From NCBI GenBank assembly GCA_019240755.1, contig JAFAXS010000034.1, forward strand, positions 1-35,594: a stretch of DNA of 35,594 nucleotides. The letters run 5' to 3'. This DNA comes from Vulcanimicrobiota bacterium. Lineage in GTDB: Bacteria > Vulcanimicrobiota > Vulcanimicrobiia > Vulcanimicrobiales > Vulcanimicrobiaceae. The notes below the pieces were generated by a model. That model was given only the letters and a program-made list of their open reading frames with translations, was not told where the DNA came from and did no database searches. A program made the translations under genes and the position numbers. Position 1 is the stretch's first letter; each line of letters opens with the position of its first letter. Below are positions 834-11,035 of this stretch, one piece after another.

Positions 834-2234
834 ATGCATCGTCACATCGTACGTCAGATCTCTGTGGCGGCCGTCGCCGCCGTGGCGCTAGCCGGCTGCA
901 GCGCGAACAACGCGCTGACCGCCTCCCCGGGACTGCCCACCGTACAAACCGCGACGCATGCGGCGCCGCCGGTGCAGTCCATGCGCCGGAGGCGGTTCAC
1001 GAGCAAGATCCAGCACGTCGTCATCGTGGTCCAGGAGAACCGGAGCTTCAACAACCTATTTCTAGGCTACAAGGGTGCGACCACGATCGCGTACGGCTAC
1101 GACACCCACGGGAACAAGATCGCGCTGCAGCCGGTCGGCCTTGAGACGAAATGGGACATCGCGCACGACTCTTCGGATTTCTTCACTGCCTGCAACGGAA
1201 CGGGCAGCATTCCCGGCACGAACTGTCAAATGAACGGCTTCGACAACGAGTACTGGCAGTGCGGAAAGAGTAGCTTCCCTCCGTGTCCCAACAACAATCC
1301 GCCCTATAGCTACGTTCCGCACAGCGAGACCAAGCCGTACTTCGCGATGGGACGGCAGTACGTTCTCGCCGACCAGATGTACGCGTCGAACTTCGACGCG
1401 AGCAGCTTCGTCTCGCACCAGTACATCATCTCCGGCCAAGCCGAATCCGCGGTAGACTATCCGTACAACGCTTGGGGCTGTCCGGGAGGCAACAGCGATA
1501 TGATCGGGGAGGTCGGCCCGCAGCGTCAGATCCCCTATAATTACGAGGTCGTCTGCTGGGACCCCACGACGCTCGGCGACGAGCTGGATAACGCGGGCGT
1601 CTCGTGGGCCTTCTACGCCGGTCAGGTAGGCGGGAACGGCGGAATCTGGAGCGCCTATCAGGCGATCAAGCATATTTACACCGGACCCGACTGGACGAAG
1701 GACGTGATCAATCCGCCCGGCCAGTTTCTCACCGATATCGGCAACGGCGAGTTGCGCGGCGTCACCTGGATCACGCCGACGTGGCCCAACTCCGATCACG
1801 CCGGCAGCGGATCCAATACGGGGCCGTCGTGGGTCACGTCGGTCGTGAACGCGATCGGGCAGTCGAAGTTTTGGAGCTCCACGGCGATCTTCATCATGTG
1901 GGACGACTACGGCGGGTGGTACGATAATCAGCCGCCGGCATACGCCGATTACGACGGGTTGGGATTCCGTCTTCCGATGCTCGTCATCTCGCCGTACGCG
2001 AAGAAGAACCACGTGTCGCACGTTCATTACGAGCACGGCAGCATCTTGAGGTTCGTCGAAGACGTCTTTGGGTTGGCACGGTTAGCCGCAAGCGATAATC
2101 GCGCGACGTCGCCCGCGAAGGACTGCTTCAACTTCAAACAGGCGCCTCGCACCTTCACGCCGTTTACGGCGCCGTACGACAGGAACTACTTCCTCCATCA
2201 GCCGCCGGACAATCACATTCCTGACTGGGAATAG
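834..2234 (+). CDS. Phosphoesterase family lipoprotein, copy 2 (complete)
   Basis: The 466-residue product opens with a lipoprotein signal ending in the lipobox LAGC (Cys22), so it is probably membrane-anchored on the periplasmic or outer side. The PF04185 core is intact: QENRSFNNLF with Glu68 and Asn69, SSFVSHQY with a serine near 191, and WDDYGGWYD with Asp357 and Asp358. In the structurally known Francisella AcpA, the equivalent Glu-Asn, Ser and Asp-Asp residues form the metal and nucleophile site, so catalysis is likely retained. The start is well supported: ATG at 834 follows AAAGGAG (819-825) directly after the stop of copy 1. The likely role is releasing phosphate or cleaving phospholipid head groups; the exact substrate cannot be read from sequence. 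Confidence 0.93.
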   Translation: MHRHIVRQISVAAVAAVALAGCSANNALTASPGLPTVQTATHAAPPVQSMRRRRFTSKIQHVVIVVQENRSFNNLFLGYKGATTIAYGYDTHGNKIALQPVGLETKWDIAHDSSDFFTACNGTGSIPGTNCQMNGFDNEYWQCGKSSFPPCPNNNPPYSYVPHSETKPYFAMGRQYVLADQMYASNFDASSFVSHQYIISGQAESAVDYPYNAWGCPGGNSDMIGEVGPQRQIPYNYEVVCWDPTTLGDELDNAGVSWAFYAGQVGGNGGIWSAYQAIKHIYTGPDWTKDVINPPGQFLTDIGNGELRGVTWITPTWPNSDHAGSGSNTGPSWVTSVVNAIGQSKFWSSTAIFIMWDDYGGWYDNQPPAYADYDGLGFRLPMLVISPYAKKNHVSHVHYEHGSILRFVEDVFGLARLAASDNRATSPAKDCFNFKQAPRTFTPFTAPYDRNYFLHQPPDNHIPDWE

Positions 2235-2259
2235 CCGCGCTCCATTCGTTCTCGCCGCG

Positions 2260-3585
2260 TTGGCGCTCGCCGCCGGGTGCAGCGCCAGCGCCGGCGCCGG
2301 CGTGGGCGCGCCGCCCCGCGTGCCCGATGCTGCGTCCACCGCGGCGCACCGCAAGATACAGCACGTCGTGATCATCGTTCAGGAGAACCGCAGCTTCAAC
2401 AACCTGTTCTACGGATTCCGCGGCGCCAAGACGGCGAAGTTCGGCTATGACAGCCGTAATCGCAAGATCGCCTTGCAGCCGGTCGGCCTCGAGACGTTCT
2501 GGGACATCGATCACAATTCGGCGTCGTTCTTTGTCGCTTGCAACGGCACGGGCAGCATTCCCGGCACGAACTGCCGGATGAACGGCTTCGACAAGGAGTT
2601 CGCAGGGTGCGGCCATCCGGGGCAGCCGAAGTGTCCCATCGCGCATCCGCAATACGGTTACGTCCCTCACTCGGAGACGAAGCCATACTTCGATATGGGC
2701 AAGCAGTATGTCGTCGCCGATCAGATGTATGCCTCGAATTTCGACGGCAGCAGCTTCGTCTCACACCAATACCTGATCGCCGGACAGGCGGAATCGTCGG
2801 TGAACTATCCGCTCTCCGGACTGTGGGGATGTCCCGGAGGCCCCAGCGACACGATCTCGACCGTCGGACCGCAGCGGCAGATTCCGTACGGTTCCGAGGT
2901 CGTCTGCTGGAATCCGAGCACGCTGGGCGACGAGCTCGACGGGGCGCACCTGCCCTGGGCCTATTACACGTCGTCAATCTACGCCGACGGTAACCTCTGG
3001 GATGCCTATCAGGCGATCGAGCACATCTACAACGGCCCCGATTGGAAGAGCGACGTCATCACCCCGCAGACGAAGTTCTTCGATGACGTCGCGGACGGCA
3101 AGCTACGCGCCGTCTCGTGGATCACGCCGACGTGGAAAAACTCCGATCACGCCGGCAGCGGTTCCAACGCCGGACCGTCGTGGGTCGCGTCGCTCGTCAA
3201 TGCCGTGGGAGAATCGAAATTTTGGGATACGACGGCCATCTTCATTTTATGGGACGACTACGGCGGCTGGTACGACCCGCAGCCGCCGGCGTACGCCGAC
3301 TACGATGGCCTCGGGTTTCGCCTCCCGTTGCTGGTCGTCTCTCCGTATGCGAAACAATACTACGTGTCGCACGTTCCGTACGAGCACGGCAGCATTTTAC
3401 GGTTTATCGAGGATGCGTTCGGGCTGCCGCGCCTCGCCGCCAGCGACAGTCGAGCGAACTCACCCGCGCAAGACTGTTTCGACTTCGGCCAGCCGCCGCG
3501 CGCGTTCGTGCCGATCCAGAGTCTCTACCCCGCCGGCTACTTCAAGCGCCAACCGTTCGATGCGCATCCTCCGGACTCGGAGTAG
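2260..3585 (+). CDS. Phosphoesterase family lipoprotein, copy 3 (uncertain start)
   Basis: Third tandem PF04185 paralog, with QENRSFNNLF, SSFVSHQY and WDDYGGWYD all present, so the catalytic core looks intact. The only standard start codon near the N-terminus is TTG at 2260. It would give MALAAGC, far too short for a lipoprotein signal. Reading further upstream in frame gives a proper hydrophobic stretch (APFVLAALALAAGC) that reaches back across the stop of copy 2 at 2234. No ATG, GTG or TTG was found in that extension as far as base 2161; a CTG at 2221 is the most plausible non-standard start. No Shine-Dalgarno is evident. Either translation reinitiates after copy 2 at an unusual codon, or a deletion removed the original start. 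Function as for copy 2 if expressed. Confidence 0.85.
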   Translation: MALAAGCSASAGAGVGAPPRVPDAASTAAHRKIQHVVIIVQENRSFNNLFYGFRGAKTAKFGYDSRNRKIALQPVGLETFWDIDHNSASFFVACNGTGSIPGTNCRMNGFDKEFAGCGHPGQPKCPIAHPQYGYVPHSETKPYFDMGKQYVVADQMYASNFDGSSFVSHQYLIAGQAESSVNYPLSGLWGCPGGPSDTISTVGPQRQIPYGSEVVCWNPSTLGDELDGAHLPWAYYTSSIYADGNLWDAYQAIEHIYNGPDWKSDVITPQTKFFDDVADGKLRAVSWITPTWKNSDHAGSGSNAGPSWVASLVNAVGESKFWDTTAIFILWDDYGGWYDPQPPAYADYDGLGFRLPLLVVSPYAKQYYVSHVPYEHGSILRFIEDAFGLPRLAASDSRANSPAQDCFDFGQPPRAFVPIQSLYPAGYFKRQPFDAHPPDSE

Positions 3586-3593
3586 CGCGAGGC

Positions 3594-4613
3594 TTACTTC
3601 TTTCCGGGCGTCCCCATGAAGCCGTGCGTGATGCCCTCGGCGTCCACGTAGTACCCAACGACGCGATGGTGGTTCTCAATGCCGGCGATGAACGTCGTTC
3701 CGGCGGCGAGCGGATTGTCGACGCTCAGCCACTGCTGCGAGCTGAGCGGATTGGTTAAGACGAAGCCGTGCGTCACGCCGGCGTGGTCCACGTACGATCC
3801 TGAAATCTGATCCTGCCAGTTCACCGCAGTTAGCTTCGTTTCTACGGCTCCCGGATAGCTCAGAAACGTGTAGAGGCCGCCCTTGAGCAGATATCCAATC
3901 GTGGCGCCCCCGACGCTCGCCCATCCGACGATGTCGCCTTTCCCGTTGATTCCGCTCGCCACGGCGCTCGTGGCGCCGGGCGGGAAGATTCCATGAAACT
4001 CACCGCTCGCCGGATTTAGCTCGAACGGGTAATCGTTCTTCGAGTCGTTCTCGTAAAATCCGACGGCGAGGTCGGCGTCGCTGATGCCGAGCAGCTCGGT
4101 GATGTTGATCTTCGATCGTAGCAGCTTCGGATCTTGATAGCTGCTCCAGATGCCGTTCTGATAGATGCATCCGAAGATCCGCCCTCGCTGCACCGAGTAG
4201 TATCCCGCGATAACCTTCATGTTGTTGAGCGACGTTATCACGGTGTTGACTGCTGTCGGATAGGGCTCTTCGGAGAAGTTCTGCGGGCCATACGGCGGAC
4301 GAACGACGTAGCCGATGCTAGGATCGGCCTTTGAGCCGCTGCCTTCAAAGCCGGTGAGTTTTGCGAGGTTGTTGATACCGGTCAGCTGATTGTATTTGAG
4401 GTCGTCCGGGTTATCCACGGTGACGAACTTGTATCCGCCGCTGTGATGGCGATACGCGGCGACCGCGTGCGAACCGGAGCTGCCCACCCCGGCCTGGGGG
4501 CTCAGGGGTGCAGCAGTGCTGCAGGCGGCGACGAATAGAGTGCTAAGAAGAATGGCCGTTCGAGGGGGAACGAACGATTGGCGACCGATGGAGTAAAAAC
4601 TTAATAACTGCAT
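3594..4613 (-). CDS. HAF-repeat lipoprotein, function unknown
   Basis: The 339-residue product has an N-terminal hydrophobic segment ending in FVAAC (Cys31), a lipobox, so it is predicted to be exported and lipidated. The rest carries about five degenerate repeats of the form G-Y/W-x-x-x-G-x-x-x-G-F/Y, seen for example as IAGYY, IVGWAS, THGFVLTN and VVGYYVDAEGITHGF. These match the HAF extracellular repeat (named for its conserved His-Ala-Phe), which is usually found in surface or secreted proteins of unknown function. ATG at 4613 gives the signal peptide; the ribosome-binding site is weak. It is convergent with phosphoesterase copy 3 (8 bases between ends) and divergent from the small lipoprotein at 4718. 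Confidence 0.8.
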   Translation of the reverse strand: MQLLSFYSIGRQSFVPPRTAILLSTLFVAACSTAAPLSPQAGVGSSGSHAVAAYRHHSGGYKFVTVDNPDDLKYNQLTGINNLAKLTGFEGSGSKADPSIGYVVRPPYGPQNFSEEPYPTAVNTVITSLNNMKVIAGYYSVQRGRIFGCIYQNGIWSSYQDPKLLRSKINITELLGISDADLAVGFYENDSKNDYPFELNPASGEFHGIFPPGATSAVASGINGKGDIVGWASVGGATIGYLLKGGLYTFLSYPGAVETKLTAVNWQDQISGSYVDHAGVTHGFVLTNPLSSQQWLSVDNPLAAGTTFIAGIENHHRVVGYYVDAEGITHGFMGTPGKK

Positions 4614-4717
4614 GGTTTACCAAATATCCCTACCCTAAAAACTGGGTTAGTAATAGTATCTTGGTACCACTTTCGCGATCCGCCCTGGCGCTTCATGCGC
4701 TGAAAGGCAGAACAAAG
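4614..4717. promoter_or_regulatory. Divergent intergenic region, probable back-to-back promoters
   Basis: This 104-base gap lies between two divergently transcribed lipoprotein genes. Bases 4615-4665 are clearly AT-richer than the surroundings, with TAGTAT-like hexamers that could act as -10 elements. For the rightward gene a Shine-Dalgarno GAAAGG lies shortly before ATG 4718. No operator palindrome is evident. Promoter assignment is inference from position and composition only. Confidence 0.4.
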
Positions 4718-4984
4718 ATGCGTCTGACGTTATTGCTAACGTGCGTGGCGGGAAGCTTCGCGCTTTCCGCCTGTAGCGCGGCGGCCCCCGGCGGAAGCTC
4801 TCTGCTCCCGCCCGCTTCTCGGGTTCATCTCATGTCGGCGGGAGGAGACGCCGATTCGGTGGGCGGCGGCCTGCCCGGGCCAGACCCCGGACCAAACGCA
4901 CGTGCCCATCGCCACCGTACGATTGTCCGCGCTACGGGCGATCCCGTAGACTCCGTAGGCGGCGGGCTCCCTCACAAAAAGTAA
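4718..4984 (+). CDS. Small repeat lipoprotein (two DSVGGGLP motifs)
   Basis: An 88-residue product. ATG 4718 is preferred over an upstream GTG at 4661 because GAAAGG precedes it at good spacing and it begins a clean lipoprotein signal (MRLTLLLTCVAG, lipobox LSAC, Cys19). The mature part is only about 70 residues, rich in Gly and Pro. It contains the octapeptide DSVGGGLP twice, once mid-protein and once six residues (HKK plus flanks) from the C-terminus. The octapeptide is identical in both places although six of eight codons differ, which suggests selection on the peptide. No catalytic domain is visible and I do not recognise the family. It lies 53 bases upstream of a LuxR-type regulator in the same direction. 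It could be a structural lipoprotein, a binding decoy or a peptide precursor; none is proven. Confidence 0.75.
   Translation: MRLTLLLTCVAGSFALSACSAAAPGGSSLLPPASRVHLMSAGGDADSVGGGLPGPDPGPNARAHRHRTIVRATGDPVDSVGGGLPHKK
4853..4876 (+). repeat. DSVGGGLP-coding repeat, copy 1
   Basis: In-frame codons read D-S-V-G-G-G-L-P within the small lipoprotein. They are followed by Gly-Pro. The peptide is identical to the second copy but codons for D, S, V, the third G, L and P differ synonymously. Confidence 0.85.
4949..4972 (+). repeat. DSVGGGLP-coding repeat, copy 2
   Basis: Second in-frame copy of the octapeptide, followed only by His-Lys-Lys and the stop codon. Six of eight codons differ from copy 1 with no amino-acid change. 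Confidence 0.85.
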
Positions 4985-5023
4985 CAACCGCGGACAGAGG
5001 CTAGTATCTCCGTACTATAGAAA

Positions 5024-5036
5024 GGCGGCCTCCGCC
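5024..5036 (+). promoter_or_regulatory. Hairpin covering the ribosome-binding site of the LuxR-type gene
   Basis: GGCGG (5024-5028), loop CCT, CCGCC (5032-5036) form a perfect 5-bp GC stem. It includes part of the Shine-Dalgarno sequence AAAGG (5021-5025) and ends two bases before ATG 5038. It could limit translation initiation; this is structural inference. Confidence 0.4.
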
Positions 5037-5037
5037 C

Positions 5038-6561
5038 ATGCTGACGACCACGAGCGGCCACGACCGCGACAATTCGGATTGGAATGACTTCGATCGGGCG
5101 CTCAAGTCCGCCGACTTCCAATTCTGTCATCAGGTCGTTGATGGTGACGAGACGCCAGAGGGAAGGGTTCGAGCGGCGCGCCTGGCCTTGCGAGAGCGGC
5201 GATTCCTCGACGCGATCGGTCTGCTCTCCGACTTTCCAAACGAACCACGCTGGGCGCGCTTCGCTCGAGACATCATCCTCGGCGCGGCGCTCGGCTCGAC
5301 GCGCGATTACACGGCGGGCCGCCGGCTGATCGATCGCGGCCTCGCCGATCTCGCGCCGGGCGACGAGCTCTACGAAGAAGCCTACTACTATAAGAGCGCC
5401 ATCGCCTGGATGCAACACGAGCATCGCGAGGCGCAAGAATCCGCGAGCGTGCTGCTCGCCTCGGCCGACCCCAACAATCGCGCCCGAGCGCGGATCGTGC
5501 TCTCCTGGATCGCGCTGCGACGCGGCGACGTTCTGCATCAGGTTGACGAGTTGCAGCGAGCGATGAACGAGCTCGACGCAGCGCCCACGCCCGACCAATA
5601 TATTCGCGCGAACGCGCTCTTTACGCTGGCGCTCCTTTGCCGAGAGCTGCCGATGCCTGAGATGTCGAAACGAGTGCGGGAAAGCTTTGAGAGCTTGCCG
5701 TGGACTCCCGGGCTGCAGCTCGAGCGTTTTCAGGTAACGCGCTTCCTCGCGACGATCAACGAGCTGGAAGGAAACGAGCTCGCGGCCTTTGCCGGATTCA
5801 AAGCCGCAACGCGGCTCGCGCCGTCGGAATACTGGAACGTCCTCTGTCTGCTCGACCGCGCCGCGCTCGCGAAGAATACGGGCGAGACCGCGTTTTCGGC
5901 CGAGCAGCTCAACGACGCGCACGAGATCGCCCGCGTGCTCTCGTGGAACGACGTGGCCGGAGAGGAACGCTCTGCACTGCTCGTCCTCGCGGAGCTCTTT
6001 GCCGATGAGAACGTCGCCGTCGCCGAGCAATACTTGGCCCTCTTCCGTTCGTTGGGCGAATCGGTGATTCCGCAACTGTCGTACGGCAGCGACCCGCGCG
6101 TCCGAGGCTTCGCCGCGTACTCGCAAGGCCTCACGTGGCTGCGCCTCGGCGACGTCGAGCAAGGGAAGATCACTCTTGCCCAGGCATGGGAGATCTTCGA
6201 CGACTTTAACTACGCGTGGCGGGCGGCGCTCTGCGCGCTGCGGCTGTACGAAGCCACGCAGGATCGCCGCTGGATCGTGCGCGCGACGCACAAGATCGAG
6301 CCGTGGCCGCGCAGTTGGATCGCGCGGCAGATTCGAGACGCGACGACCATGCCGAGCGTGCCCCTGCAGCAAATTCCGCCGGCCAAGCGCAAGGTGCTCG
6401 AGCTGGTTCGCGCAGGGCGACGGAACTCGGAGATCGCGCACATCCTGGGCCGTAGCCCGAACACGATTCGAAATCAAGTCGCCGAGTTGTTCGCCACCTT
6501 CAACGTTCGCAGCCGAGCCGAGCTCGTCGCGGTCCTCTCGAAGCAGCGCACTGCACAGTAG
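5038..6561 (+). CDS. LuxR-family transcriptional regulator with helical-repeat N-terminus
   Basis: A 507-residue cytoplasmic protein. Residues about 1-430 are alpha-helical and leucine/alanine-rich with a TPR-like character, suited to protein or ligand binding. The last 60 residues or so form a LuxR/GerE-type helix-turn-helix: PPAKRKVLELVRAG, then NSEIAHILGRSPNTIRNQV, then FATFNVRSRAELVAVL, matching the usual four-helix order. There is no receiver domain, no autoinducer-binding domain and no visible Walker A ATPase motif, so it is not a classical response regulator, LuxR quorum sensor or MalT/LAL protein. ATG 5038 is supported by AAAGGCGG just upstream. A possible promoter is CGGACA (4991-4996) with TACTAT (5013-5018). 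The neighbouring repeat lipoprotein may be its partner or target; this is speculation. Confidence 0.85.
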   Translation: MLTTTSGHDRDNSDWNDFDRALKSADFQFCHQVVDGDETPEGRVRAARLALRERRFLDAIGLLSDFPNEPRWARFARDIILGAALGSTRDYTAGRRLIDRGLADLAPGDELYEEAYYYKSAIAWMQHEHREAQESASVLLASADPNNRARARIVLSWIALRRGDVLHQVDELQRAMNELDAAPTPDQYIRANALFTLALLCRELPMPEMSKRVRESFESLPWTPGLQLERFQVTRFLATINELEGNELAAFAGFKAATRLAPSEYWNVLCLLDRAALAKNTGETAFSAEQLNDAHEIARVLSWNDVAGEERSALLVLAELFADENVAVAEQYLALFRSLGESVIPQLSYGSDPRVRGFAAYSQGLTWLRLGDVEQGKITLAQAWEIFDDFNYAWRAALCALRLYEATQDRRWIVRATHKIEPWPRSWIARQIRDATTMPSVPLQQIPPAKRKVLELVRAGRRNSEIAHILGRSPNTIRNQVAELFATFNVRSRAELVAVLSKQRTAQ

Positions 6562-7279: not shown

Positions 7280-10200
7280 TTGAAAACTTCGCCGTTGTAT
7301 CGCCTGTGCGCGCTCGTTCTCTTGGGCGTGCTTTTTACCAGTTACAAGGCGCCCGCGGGCACGACCGGATCGCTCACCGGAACGGTTCTCGACGCCGCTA
7401 AGAAGTCGCCCATTGCGGGTGCCACCGTCACCGCGGCGAGCCCGTCGCAAGTGGCGCGCGTCAGGACCGATAGCGCCGGCCGCTTCACGTTTCTTTCTCT
7501 AGCGCCCGACACGTACACGGTGTCCGCGCAGCGCGAGGGTTACGAATCCCTATCGATCGCCGGCATCTCGGTGTTGGCGGATCAGTCCCAAGTGATTCCG
7601 ATCGCCCTCCAGCCGAGCCTCAAGACGATCGCGCGGGTCGCGTCGCGATCCTCGCTCAGCCCGGTCCGTCCGGGAACGGGCACCGACGTGTACTCGGTAA
7701 ATCCAGCGCTGACGTCGGCGGCCGCGACCCTGGGCGGCGGCGGCGGTCTGAACAATGCGTACTCGGCGATCGCGGCGATGCCGGGGGCGTACGTCCCGCC
7801 GAATCAGGTCGGCGTCAACCAGACCGTCTACATCCGGGGCGGCTACTACGATCAGATCGGCTACGAGTACGACGGCGTTCCGATCAACCGCTCGTTCGAC
7901 AACTATCCGGGCAACTCGGAGACGACGCTGGGACAGCAGGAACTGCAGATCTATACGGGCGGCGGAGAGGCGGACGCCAACGCAACGGGCTTGGGCGGCT
8001 TCATCAACCAAGTGATCAAAACCGGTACGTTTCCGGGGTACGCAATCGCCGGCGGCACGGTGGGCACGCCGGTGTTCTACCACAATCTCAACATCGAGGC
8101 GGGCGGATCGACGCCCGACCGCATGTTTTCGTACTACGTCGGCATCGGCGGAACGAACCAGGATTTTCGCTACTTCGATCAGTTCAACGGCGCGAGCCTG
8201 ACCGATACGATTCCCTACGGCTATTGGCCGGCCCACGTAACGAGCGCAACCTGCTGCTTCTACCCGGCCGTCTATGCGGCGTGCTCGAATAACTTTACAT
8301 ACCATAACCCTCTCGCGCCGCCGTCCAGCACGCCGCCACCCGGCTATCTCACCAGCGATCCCGGGTGTTTCGGCTCGTACACGTCGAGCTACGGACAGCC
8401 CTCGAACATCACGCAGCGCGACGTTGTCGCGAACTTTCACATTGGGCTTCCGCATCGTCAGGACGTCGGCCGCGACGACGTTCAGCTCCTCTATATGTCG
8501 TCGGCCAACTTTCAACAGGACTACTCGAGCGTCAACGACGCGGGACCGCTCGCGCTCGGCATCATCAACGCGGGATTTCAGAACAACTGGCCCGACGCCT
8601 ACACTTTCCCGGGCAACACCAAATGGCTGGCGCCGGCCTCCACGCGGCCGGTCGCGTACTACTATCCCGGCTCGCCGACTGACCGCTGCGCAAACCTCAA
8701 TGCGACGACGTTCGGCTCCGACGATCCAGTGCTGCCGAACTCGTGCCCAAACAACGCGCTCGCGCTGATCCCCAACGACTATCGCGATGGGCGCTGGGAC
8801 ACGGCCAGCATCGGCAAGGTCCAATACCAAAAGAACCTGGGATCCACGGCTTACGTGCGCCTCTTCGGCTACATTTTCTACTCGAATACCAACCGCGCGA
8901 CGGGGAACGGCTACGGCAACAACGTCACGTTGGGGATCACCAACTACCAGTACTCGATCGACTCGCACACGAGCGGGCTCGAGATGCAGTTCGCCGACCA
9001 ACTCTCGAACGCGCATCTCCTTTCGGGAATGGTCTCGTACATCGGCGCCAACACGTTACGATACTTCAACCACAACTACAACAACACGGGAAACCAGCAG
9101 GTCAGCAACTTCACCAACGGCAAGGAGTGCTTTTCGACCAGCACCGGATCGGGCTCCGGGTCGGGATCGTTCGTTCTAGGGAATCCCGCGCCGTGCAACG
9201 CGGTGGTGGCGCAAGGCACCTTTGAATCGCCGTACGGTTCGTTTACGAGCCAGGATCCATGCCACGCCGGTCAGCTGCCGGCGAACACGCCCGCCTGTCG
9301 CGCGGGTGCATCCATGGTCTTGACGTACCTGGGCAATAGCGCCGACGTCAACACGGTGGCCCCGCGAATCACGAGCGGCTCGCTGAGCGACCAATGGCGC
9401 CCGAGCGACCGCTGGAACGTCAACGGCAGCGTGCGCTTCGAGAACGACACGTACGACCTGGCGAACACGAACGATCCCGCGAAGAATTTCTGGTTTGCCG
9501 CCGCGCAGCGAGAGTTTTGCGTCAATCCCGTGACGCGACAGCCCATCTTCATCCCGCAGCCTCCCCAGAGCATTTATGTCTTCACACCGCTCGTCGCGTT
9601 CAACTGCCCGATCGATCGCTCCACGGGGAAGCCGATACAGACCGTTCATCCCAACGGAACCGCCGGAATTCTCTTGACCAACGTCTATCCGTCGTCATAC
9701 ACCGTCGCCTATGGCGAGCCGCGTCTTTCCGCGACGTACACCGTCAATCCCGATACGGTCCTGCGCTTTTCGGCGGGCCGCTACGCGCAGCAGCCGCAAA
9801 ATTACGAGATTCAGTACAATACGGCGGAGCCCAACCTCGCGTCCAGCCTGCTCGGATTCATTCCCTTCGGGTACGATTCGCCGCTCCATCAAGCGCTGCC
9901 GCAGTTTTCCGACAACTATGATTTCTCGGTCGAGCACCGCTTCAGCGGAACCGACGTGGCGATCAAGGTGACCCCCTATTACCGATGGGGCACGAATCAG
10001 CTCTACGAGACGGTGAACCTGCCGAGCCTCAACGTCTCGCCGTCGTTTAACGCGGGAACGCTGCGCGTGGACGGCGTCGAGCTCGAGCTGACCAAGGGCG
10101 ATTTCACGAAGAACGGCTTCTCCGGAATTCTGTCCTACACGTATACGAATGCGGCGGAGAAGTGGGGCAACTATCCCAACAGCACCGTCGGGCCGCTCGA

Positions 10201-11035
10201 CCAGTACATCCAAGACATTCAAGAGTTCAACGCGCTGACGAGGGCGGGCGGCGGAGCGCGCTGCTACACGAATCAGGCGAACGGCACGCCCGATCCGAAG
10301 TGCGGGCCGACGTCGATCCTCAACCCGTACTACACATTGTCTTCGCAGCCGCTGCTGGGACGCGATGGCTGGTACGCGCCGGGCCTCGAAGTGCCGTACA
10401 TATCGCCGAACACGCTCGCGCTTGTCCTGAACTACCGCTACCGGAAGTTCGCCGTTACGCCGGCGATCTCGCTGTTCGAAGGAACGACGTATGGCGCGCC
10501 GTCCGACGTCCTAGGGCTCGACCCGCGCGCGTGCTCGAACAACCTGCGAAGCCGGCGGCTTCCCGGCAATCCGCTCGGCGCCGATTACACGTCGTGCAGC
10601 TTCGCGCTCACCGCCGACGGCACGACGCCCGGTAACCTCTACATTCCGAATCCTCAGACGGGAACTTTCGACACCTTCGGTCAGTTTCGCCAGCCGTGGC
10701 AGTTGAACGTCGGCGCGCAGCTCTCGTACGACTTCACGCCGCGCATCGCGGGCCGGCTGATGGTGACGAACCTCTTGAACCGCTGTTTCGGCGGATCGAA
10801 CGAGCCGTGGTCCCAAGCCTATCCGCCGAACGACGTGATCTGCGGCTACGTCTCGAACACGTTTTACAATGGGGGCCATTTCTACAACGGCACCAGCCCC
10901 AACGATAAGCGCGCCAACGGCGTGCCGGAGATTCCATACTTCGCGCAATCCTTTGCGCCCGCGTACGGCGATGCGTTCTCGGCCAACTATCCGCTGGCGT
11001 TGAACTTCTACTTCTCGCTGCAGGTAAAGATGTAG
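7280..11035 (+). CDS. TonB-dependent-receptor-like outer membrane protein with N-terminal carboxypeptidase regulatory-like domain
   Basis: A 1251-residue protein. It starts with a signal peptide (about residues 1-26), then a carboxypeptidase-regulatory-like (CarboxypepD_reg) beta-sandwich at about 28-115 (TGSLTGTVLDAAKKSPIAGA), then a plug-like region including VYIRGGYYDQIGYEYDGVPI, then a long Tyr/Asn/Gly-rich beta-barrel to the C-terminus. This is the layout of Oar-like receptors of Acidobacteria and related phyla. These import or bind large substrates at the outer membrane, powered by TonB. No TonB box is obvious and no SusD partner is adjacent. The start is TTG 7280, supported by AAGGAAG seven bases upstream. 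It is the first gene of a same-strand run with a secreted protein, glycosylasparaginase and GH125 mannosidase, so glycopeptide uptake is a reasonable hypothesis. Confidence 0.88.
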   Translation: MKTSPLYRLCALVLLGVLFTSYKAPAGTTGSLTGTVLDAAKKSPIAGATVTAASPSQVARVRTDSAGRFTFLSLAPDTYTVSAQREGYESLSIAGISVLADQSQVIPIALQPSLKTIARVASRSSLSPVRPGTGTDVYSVNPALTSAAATLGGGGGLNNAYSAIAAMPGAYVPPNQVGVNQTVYIRGGYYDQIGYEYDGVPINRSFDNYPGNSETTLGQQELQIYTGGGEADANATGLGGFINQVIKTGTFPGYAIAGGTVGTPVFYHNLNIEAGGSTPDRMFSYYVGIGGTNQDFRYFDQFNGASLTDTIPYGYWPAHVTSATCCFYPAVYAACSNNFTYHNPLAPPSSTPPPGYLTSDPGCFGSYTSSYGQPSNITQRDVVANFHIGLPHRQDVGRDDVQLLYMSSANFQQDYSSVNDAGPLALGIINAGFQNNWPDAYTFPGNTKWLAPASTRPVAYYYPGSPTDRCANLNATTFGSDDPVLPNSCPNNALALIPNDYRDGRWDTASIGKVQYQKNLGSTAYVRLFGYIFYSNTNRATGNGYGNNVTLGITNYQYSIDSHTSGLEMQFADQLSNAHLLSGMVSYIGANTLRYFNHNYNNTGNQQVSNFTNGKECFSTSTGSGSGSGSFVLGNPAPCNAVVAQGTFESPYGSFTSQDPCHAGQLPANTPACRAGASMVLTYLGNSADVNTVAPRITSGSLSDQWRPSDRWNVNGSVRFENDTYDLANTNDPAKNFWFAAAQREFCVNPVTRQPIFIPQPPQSIYVFTPLVAFNCPIDRSTGKPIQTVHPNGTAGILLTNVYPSSYTVAYGEPRLSATYTVNPDTVLRFSAGRYAQQPQNYEIQYNTAEPNLASSLLGFIPFGYDSPLHQALPQFSDNYDFSVEHRFSGTDVAIKVTPYYRWGTNQLYETVNLPSLNVSPSFNAGTLRVDGVELELTKGDFTKNGFSGILSYTYTNAAEKWGNYPNSTVGPLDQYIQDIQEFNALTRAGGGARCYTNQANGTPDPKCGPTSILNPYYTLSSQPLLGRDGWYAPGLEVPYISPNTLALVLNYRYRKFAVTPAISLFEGTTYGAPSDVLGLDPRACSNNLRSRRLPGNPLGADYTSCSFALTADGTTPGNLYIPNPQTGTFDTFGQFRQPWQLNVGAQLSYDFTPRIAGRLMVTNLLNRCFGGSNEPWSQAYPPNDVICGYVSNTFYNGGHFYNGTSPNDKRANGVPEIPYFAQSFAPAYGDAFSANYPLALNFYFSLQVKM

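Follow-up and report, generated by a model that had tools for sequence, protein, structure and literature searches.

The gene for a small lipoprotein with a repeated octapeptide and the gene for a TPR-LuxR regulator that follows it, found in the 35,594-nucleotide stretch analysed here (the window), form a real, widespread and conserved module, and the best-supported reading of the repeats is that they are the peptide ligand of the TPR-LuxR protein. The module combines conserved pairing of the two genes, export signals at the level of sequence, repeats in which only the motif is under purifying selection, a conserved DNA dyad and a regulator with TPR-plus-HTH architecture (Table 1). It probably constitutes a peptide-signalling module, made up of an exported multi-copy precursor and a cytoplasmic TPR-LuxR receptor, that would operate with an RRNPP-like logic.

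Table 1. Features of the precursor/TPR-LuxR locus (positions in the window).
Feature	Position	Strand	Remarks
Dyad element, TAGTATCTTGGTACCA, 16-bp	4654..4669	+	Candidate operator/promoter element before precursor gene; form TAGTATMTYSGTACYA across the genus
Precursor lipoprotein, 88 aa	4718..4984	+	Proposed multi-copy signal-peptide precursor; lipobox LSA followed by C19; repeat-bearing homologs
Repeat copy 1, DSVGGGLP	4853..4876	+	Residues 46-53 of the lipoprotein
Repeat copy 2, DSVGGGLP	4949..4972	+	Residues 78-85; 6/8 codons differ from copy 1
Dyad copy 2, TAGTATCTCCGTACTA	5002..5017	+	20 bases before luxR start codon
TPR-LuxR regulator, 507 aa	5038..6561	+	Proposed cytoplasmic peptide receptor and transcription factor; PF00196, AF2, ortholog group
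TPR superhelix	5074..6348	+	Residues 13-437; AF2 helices, Foldseek matches to TPR superhelices
C-terminal GerE/LuxR helix-turn-helix	6379..6543	+	Residues 448-502; Pfam scan, AF2

The original prediction described an 88-residue lipoprotein with two copies of DSVGGGLP, the second lying three residues from the C-terminus, encoded 53 bases ahead of the regulator, and the two open reading frames agree with this description. The translation is MRLTLLLTCVAGSFALSAC followed by SAAAPGGSSLLPPASRVHLMSAGGDADSVGGGLPGPDPGPNARAHRHRTIVRATGDPVDSVGGGLPHKK (19 + 69 residues), and HKK are the sole residues after the second copy. A comparison of codons gives the predicted six differences in eight; since these are almost only synonymous, a fresh DNA duplication is ruled out as the origin of the repeat, as had been argued. 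A degenerate octapeptide pattern has two matches in the 2.6-Mb genome, both inside this protein, and within the genus just three genomes have exact copies of it, solely at the TPR-LuxR locus, a restriction that suits a specific signal. No family could be assigned to the precursor from Pfam, NCBIfam or PHROGs, and an Rfam scan of positions 4500-5100 gave no match. Used as a homology query, the protein returned chiefly weak matches to lipoprotein leaders and was useful for three loci only (L002, L003 and L007).

Orthologs of the regulator (60-71% identity) are present in 13 other genomes of the genus, 14 with that of the window, and a fragment is also found in G012. Every ortholog whose upstream DNA is available is preceded by a repeat-bearing lipoprotein, with 2 to ~13 copies of a motif that is homogeneous in each genome and different between genomes. 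DSVGGGLP occurs twice in the window and three times in G004, DSVGGG[IL]P three times in G013, DSVGGGPP four times in G007, seven in G006 and two in G010, and DSVGGGPVP five times in G008; the remaining arrays consist of SVGGSIP (G002, four copies), SVGGGPP (G005, 13 copies), VVGGGPTP (G001, nine copies) and VVGGGPSP (G011, three copies). MAGs may understate how long the arrays are, since assemblies are broken in or near the array: this is the case in G014 (C101), G016 (C11) and G009 (C12), where the start of the precursor lies on another contig end. Mapped on the receptor tree, six repeat types can be accounted for by five changes, the fewest possible, a fit that vertical descent alone would also give. 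The search of related genomes that had been proposed thus found the repeat architecture and its linkage to TPR-LuxR conserved, with the exact octapeptide in the three genomes mentioned, and this supports the suggestion that the lipoprotein provides a processed signal, or bears a surface motif, linked with the regulator. Absence of homologs, homologs lacking the repeat and homologs never near a LuxR-type gene were each looked for, and none of these outcomes occurred.

The neighbourhood of the pair that is conserved across the genus comprises PF04185 phosphoesterase genes in tandem and the gene of a divergent lipoprotein; DJ-1/PfpI is frequently encoded there too, and some genomes add a guanylate cyclase/NB-ARC/TPR protein. 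In the window the tandem PF04185 phosphoesterase genes occupy positions 834-3585, with similar arrays by the orthologous loci, and a TonB-dependent receptor-like protein with an N-terminal CarboxypepD_reg domain is encoded at 7280-11035.

The original prediction also held that selection or conservation of the peptide was the likely cause of the identity between copies, and the comparison of repeat copies in ten arrays upholds it. In motif columns pN is 0.005 and pS 0.40, the former biased downward because repeat units were chosen by motif patterns, whereas in spacer columns the values are 0.32 and 0.37, respectively. Few decayed copies are seen, and several arrays show considerable divergence at synonymous sites. 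What selection preserves is the peptide motif, and neither the DNA nor the spacer.

The regulator was expected to be a helical-repeat protein with a LuxR/GerE end, and it is: a Pfam scan places the PF00196 GerE match at residues 451-499, and the AF2 model (mean pLDDT 88.6) is an all-helical TPR solenoid with a C-terminal HTH. The statement that it has no recognisable ligand domain did not stand, given that known pheromone receptors bind their peptides through just such a TPR solenoid. Foldseek searches with the TPR fold retrieve TPR superhelices, including pheromone-bound Rap (8rst/8rsv) among the best 50 matches. As far as the model goes, this likeness should be taken as a fold resemblance common to many TPR proteins and not as evidence of descent. 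A natural read-through fusion of precursor tail and receptor in G010 (L037) was modelled as one chain with AF2, and its peptide is disordered (pLDDT ~30), so that the predicted structure neither supports nor excludes peptide binding. Five SBP_bac_5 oligopeptide-binding proteins are encoded in the genome of the window; a search for plasmid relatives of TPR-LuxR found none.

The dyad is a 16-bp element with ends TAGTA/TACTA that, in the form common to the genus, lies ~45-53 bases ahead of the precursor start at orthologous loci. A search of 18 genomes that tolerated one mismatch places almost every match at precursor/TPR-LuxR loci, and four one-mismatch sites elsewhere (in G014, G000, G012 and G001) have no precursor downstream. 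The window contains only the two matches given in Table 1, where shuffled sequences lead one to expect none, and at one locus of G008 (L289, C111:6687-6716) the element is in tandem duplicate before the precursor. Judged from sequence, the dyad agrees with autoregulation through a LuxR-type HTH acting as a dimer, or it may be a shared promoter element. The 5' leader of the window precursor (4670-4717) has, just ahead of the ribosome-binding site, a short GC-rich inverted repeat, GCGC-TTCAT-GCGC, and the leaders of its relatives have AGCGCC-TTCC-GGCGCT.

Beyond the orthologous loci, a search with a profile of 22 TPR-LuxRs (A1) detected relatives of the regulator in 68 of 99 genomes of the family, with up to 14 per genome; the loci with record names all belong to Ca. 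Eremiobacterota MAGs, except one titled only 'bacterium' (L099). The genome of Vulcanimicrobium alpinum (G025) has no full-length relative of the receptor. Many of these paralogs follow short exported ORFs with D..GG or another repeated motif. The motifs comprise DTPGGPI (one to three copies), NDSGG[IG]MTGD, DGGGSMP, STHGGAVD (seven), DS[IV]GGP[LP]T (five), DTIGGGF and EGSHPPY (three each), and DGTLPPY, DTLSTSGPPG and GSGGPDH (two each), and many of the precursors have a plain signal sequence, no lipobox and little besides the motif (for example, MALFFAFLVALSSGGFFHAAQGAGIVQPLDSTGGMDGD). An IMG/VR relative found via the receptor alone, L300 (IMGVR_UViG_3300025949_001129), has an upstream exported ORF with two DAPGGLPIG copies, as FDAPGGLPIG and LDAPGGLPIG; its contig is classed as viral and may be a provirus or a misclassified host contig. 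At L125 (G032:C208) the upstream ORF has IASWGAIIVG twice with diverged codons, an unrelated hydrophobic motif.

The association was measured with a rule that counts exported ORFs of 30-190 aa, with a hydrophobic N-terminus, a hydrophilic end and a stop close upstream on the same strand; export was judged by the hydrophobic N-terminus and a lipobox rule, standing in for a trained signal-peptide predictor. Of 58 TPR-LuxR genes, 38 have a small exported ORF before them, versus 2 of 40 other GerE genes drawn from these and related genomes (Fisher 3e-10), and a D..GG motif or internal repeat is present in 34 of 58 versus 0 of 40 (Fisher 9e-11). Taken separately, the motif gives 28 of 58 and an internal 6-mer repeat 18 of 58, both versus 0 of 40. 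The D..GG motif was picked after seeing the first loci, so the weight rests on this comparison with controls and not on the motif count alone. As orthologs inflate the 58-versus-40 comparison, the set was collapsed at 50% identity, after which an exported ORF precedes 28 of 61 receptors, versus 8 in antisense and 3.3 expected in dinucleotide shuffles. The corresponding sense, antisense and shuffled counts are 20, 1 and 0.1 for D..GG and 9, 0 and 0 for repeats. Against GerE controls collapsed in the same way, of which only 12 remain, the separation is less marked, with p = 0.007 for either feature. Residue shuffling of the exported ORFs gives an expectation of 7.5 with D..GG, versus 20 of 29 observed.

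About half of the receptors in the collapsed set have no small precursor under this rule. Many TPR-LuxRs of this kind follow a ~330-aa lipoprotein with the same motif in a linker (QPFDTSGGI and PLDVLGGAP are examples), and the three such proteins that were scanned all have DUF4382 and CarboxypepD_reg domains. A D/E/N..GG rule matches 21 of 22 inspected proteins within 75 residues of the lipidated cysteine, and in 20 of the 22 the match is in the linker; that of L245 falls inside a domain. A linker D..GG upstream of TPR-LuxR was found at L232, L233, L234, L236, L238, L242, L248, L252, L255 and L259, among others. In this branch the larger lipoprotein may release a peptide, or else the motif may work outside the cytoplasm; the ~330-aa protein is less like a classical pheromone precursor, and this counts against a signalling reading.

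For the pair as a signalling module, we infer the processing, import and binding of the peptide, as well as the direction of regulation and the target genes. The small lipoprotein would be exported by Sec and then lipidated, its tail presenting several copies of a species-specific short peptide, DSVGGGLP in the window, that extracytoplasmic proteolysis would set free. The peptide would be re-imported, for instance via an oligopeptide permease, and would dock on the concave face of the TPR superhelix in the neighbouring TPR-LuxR. Binding would alter how the C-terminal LuxR DNA-binding domain acts on the 16-bp dyad before the precursor, which in the window also stands before luxR, and the outcome would be an autoregulated switch, either density-dependent or self-sensing. 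The Eremiobacterota phylum is diderm (PMC6664022; PMC9758169), and the peptide would have to cross the outer membrane, which counts against this mechanism.

Another way of looking at the repeat lipoprotein is to consider it a structural or binding protein of the surface or periplasm (an adhesin, spacer or envelope component) that is merely regulated by TPR-LuxR, its motif binding an extracytoplasmic partner without being released. Lipidation, which holds the protein at the membrane, a copy number of 2 to ~13 like that of variable surface proteins, and the D..GG in the linker of DUF4382 lipoproteins before other TPR-LuxRs are all in keeping with this explanation. It is nevertheless unlikely, given that many precursors consist of a plain signal sequence without lipobox and little but the motif, that the spacers between repeats are unconstrained, and that the precursors are constantly paired with a TPR regulator of the cytoplasm whose fold is of a peptide-binding kind. 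The same anatomy as that of a signalling pair could also belong to a reporter of secretion or envelope state, in which the small protein or fragments of it would bind TPR-LuxR only when export or processing changes, a cell-autonomous device free of cell-cell signalling. Although an outer membrane that hinders uptake and a linker motif suited to monitored cargo speak for such a reporter, by itself it leaves unexplained why the peptides are species-specific, homogeneous and multi-copy, and why purifying selection is limited to the motif between unconstrained spacers; we regard it as improbable.

Multi-core RiPP precursors consist of a leader plus repeated short cores. The general layout of the precursors is similar, and the repeats could in principle be core peptides of such a RiPP, or of another peptide natural product with its own regulator, that is modified and exported. 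However, the leaders are of the Sec/lipoprotein type and not of the RiPP type, the precursors are tied to TPR-LuxR genes across the family, and no modification enzyme or dedicated exporter was seen in the conserved neighbourhood (modification enzymes were sought with Pfam among the neighbours in the window and in one conserved downstream gene of two related loci, and among other neighbours in four loci by sequence similarity), all of which makes this origin very improbable indeed.

The peptide-signalling reading can be placed among several known systems. Searches of the open-licence literature turned up no account of a peptide system built on TPR-LuxR, or of such quorum sensing in Eremiobacterota, which is weak evidence of absence. 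With LuxR/LuxI and the LuxR solos the regulator shares a C-terminal GerE HTH; instead of the PF03472 autoinducer-binding domain it has a TPR superhelix (Pfam reports GerE/HTH-type families only), and no LuxI neighbour was seen in the inspected loci. Like the MalT/LAL regulators it joins helical repeats to a C-terminal LuxR HTH, but it has ~500 aa versus ~900 and no NB-ARC/AAA ATPase match in Pfam.

The closest parallels in logic are the RRNPPA systems (Rap/Phr, NprR, PlcR, PrgX, Rgg, AimR), whose known receptors come from Firmicutes, all but one genus in Bacilli, and begin with an HTH or three-helix bundle at the N-terminus, and whose propeptides are exported through Sec/SPI or SPII, some with several pheromone copies (PMC9765709). 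As in RRNPPA, the gene of an exported propeptide adjoins that of a cytoplasmic receptor with a TPR superhelix (AF2, Foldseek), here with the precursor upstream in all pairs found. Two defining features differ, the HTH, which is of GerE type and C-terminal, and the host, which is a diderm phylum and not Firmicutes, and the pair is therefore not filed as an RRNPPA member. The Rap-Phr propeptides of phages phi3T and phi105 reportedly contain up to 8 same or near-same mature peptides, cut out by extracellular proteases (PMC11343458), and the arrays described here likewise hold multiple copies of one peptide; unlike them, they reach ~13 copies of a D..GG-type motif, sequences and host are unrelated, and Rap is devoid of a DNA-binding domain. 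On balance, we lean slightly towards a large Eremiobacterota signalling family independent of RRNPPA, with D..GG peptides, cytoplasmic TPR-LuxRs in up to 14 paralogs per genome and a DUF4382-linker branch. Candidate signal sequences are now at hand for dozens of receptors, which makes the idea testable with synthetic peptides. In the literature compared, two-gene cytoplasmic peptide-pheromone receptors are described for Firmicutes and their mobile elements; if the signalling reading is true, peptide communication extends to a new bacterial branch, a diderm and mostly uncultured soil phylum, with a LuxR DNA-binding domain.
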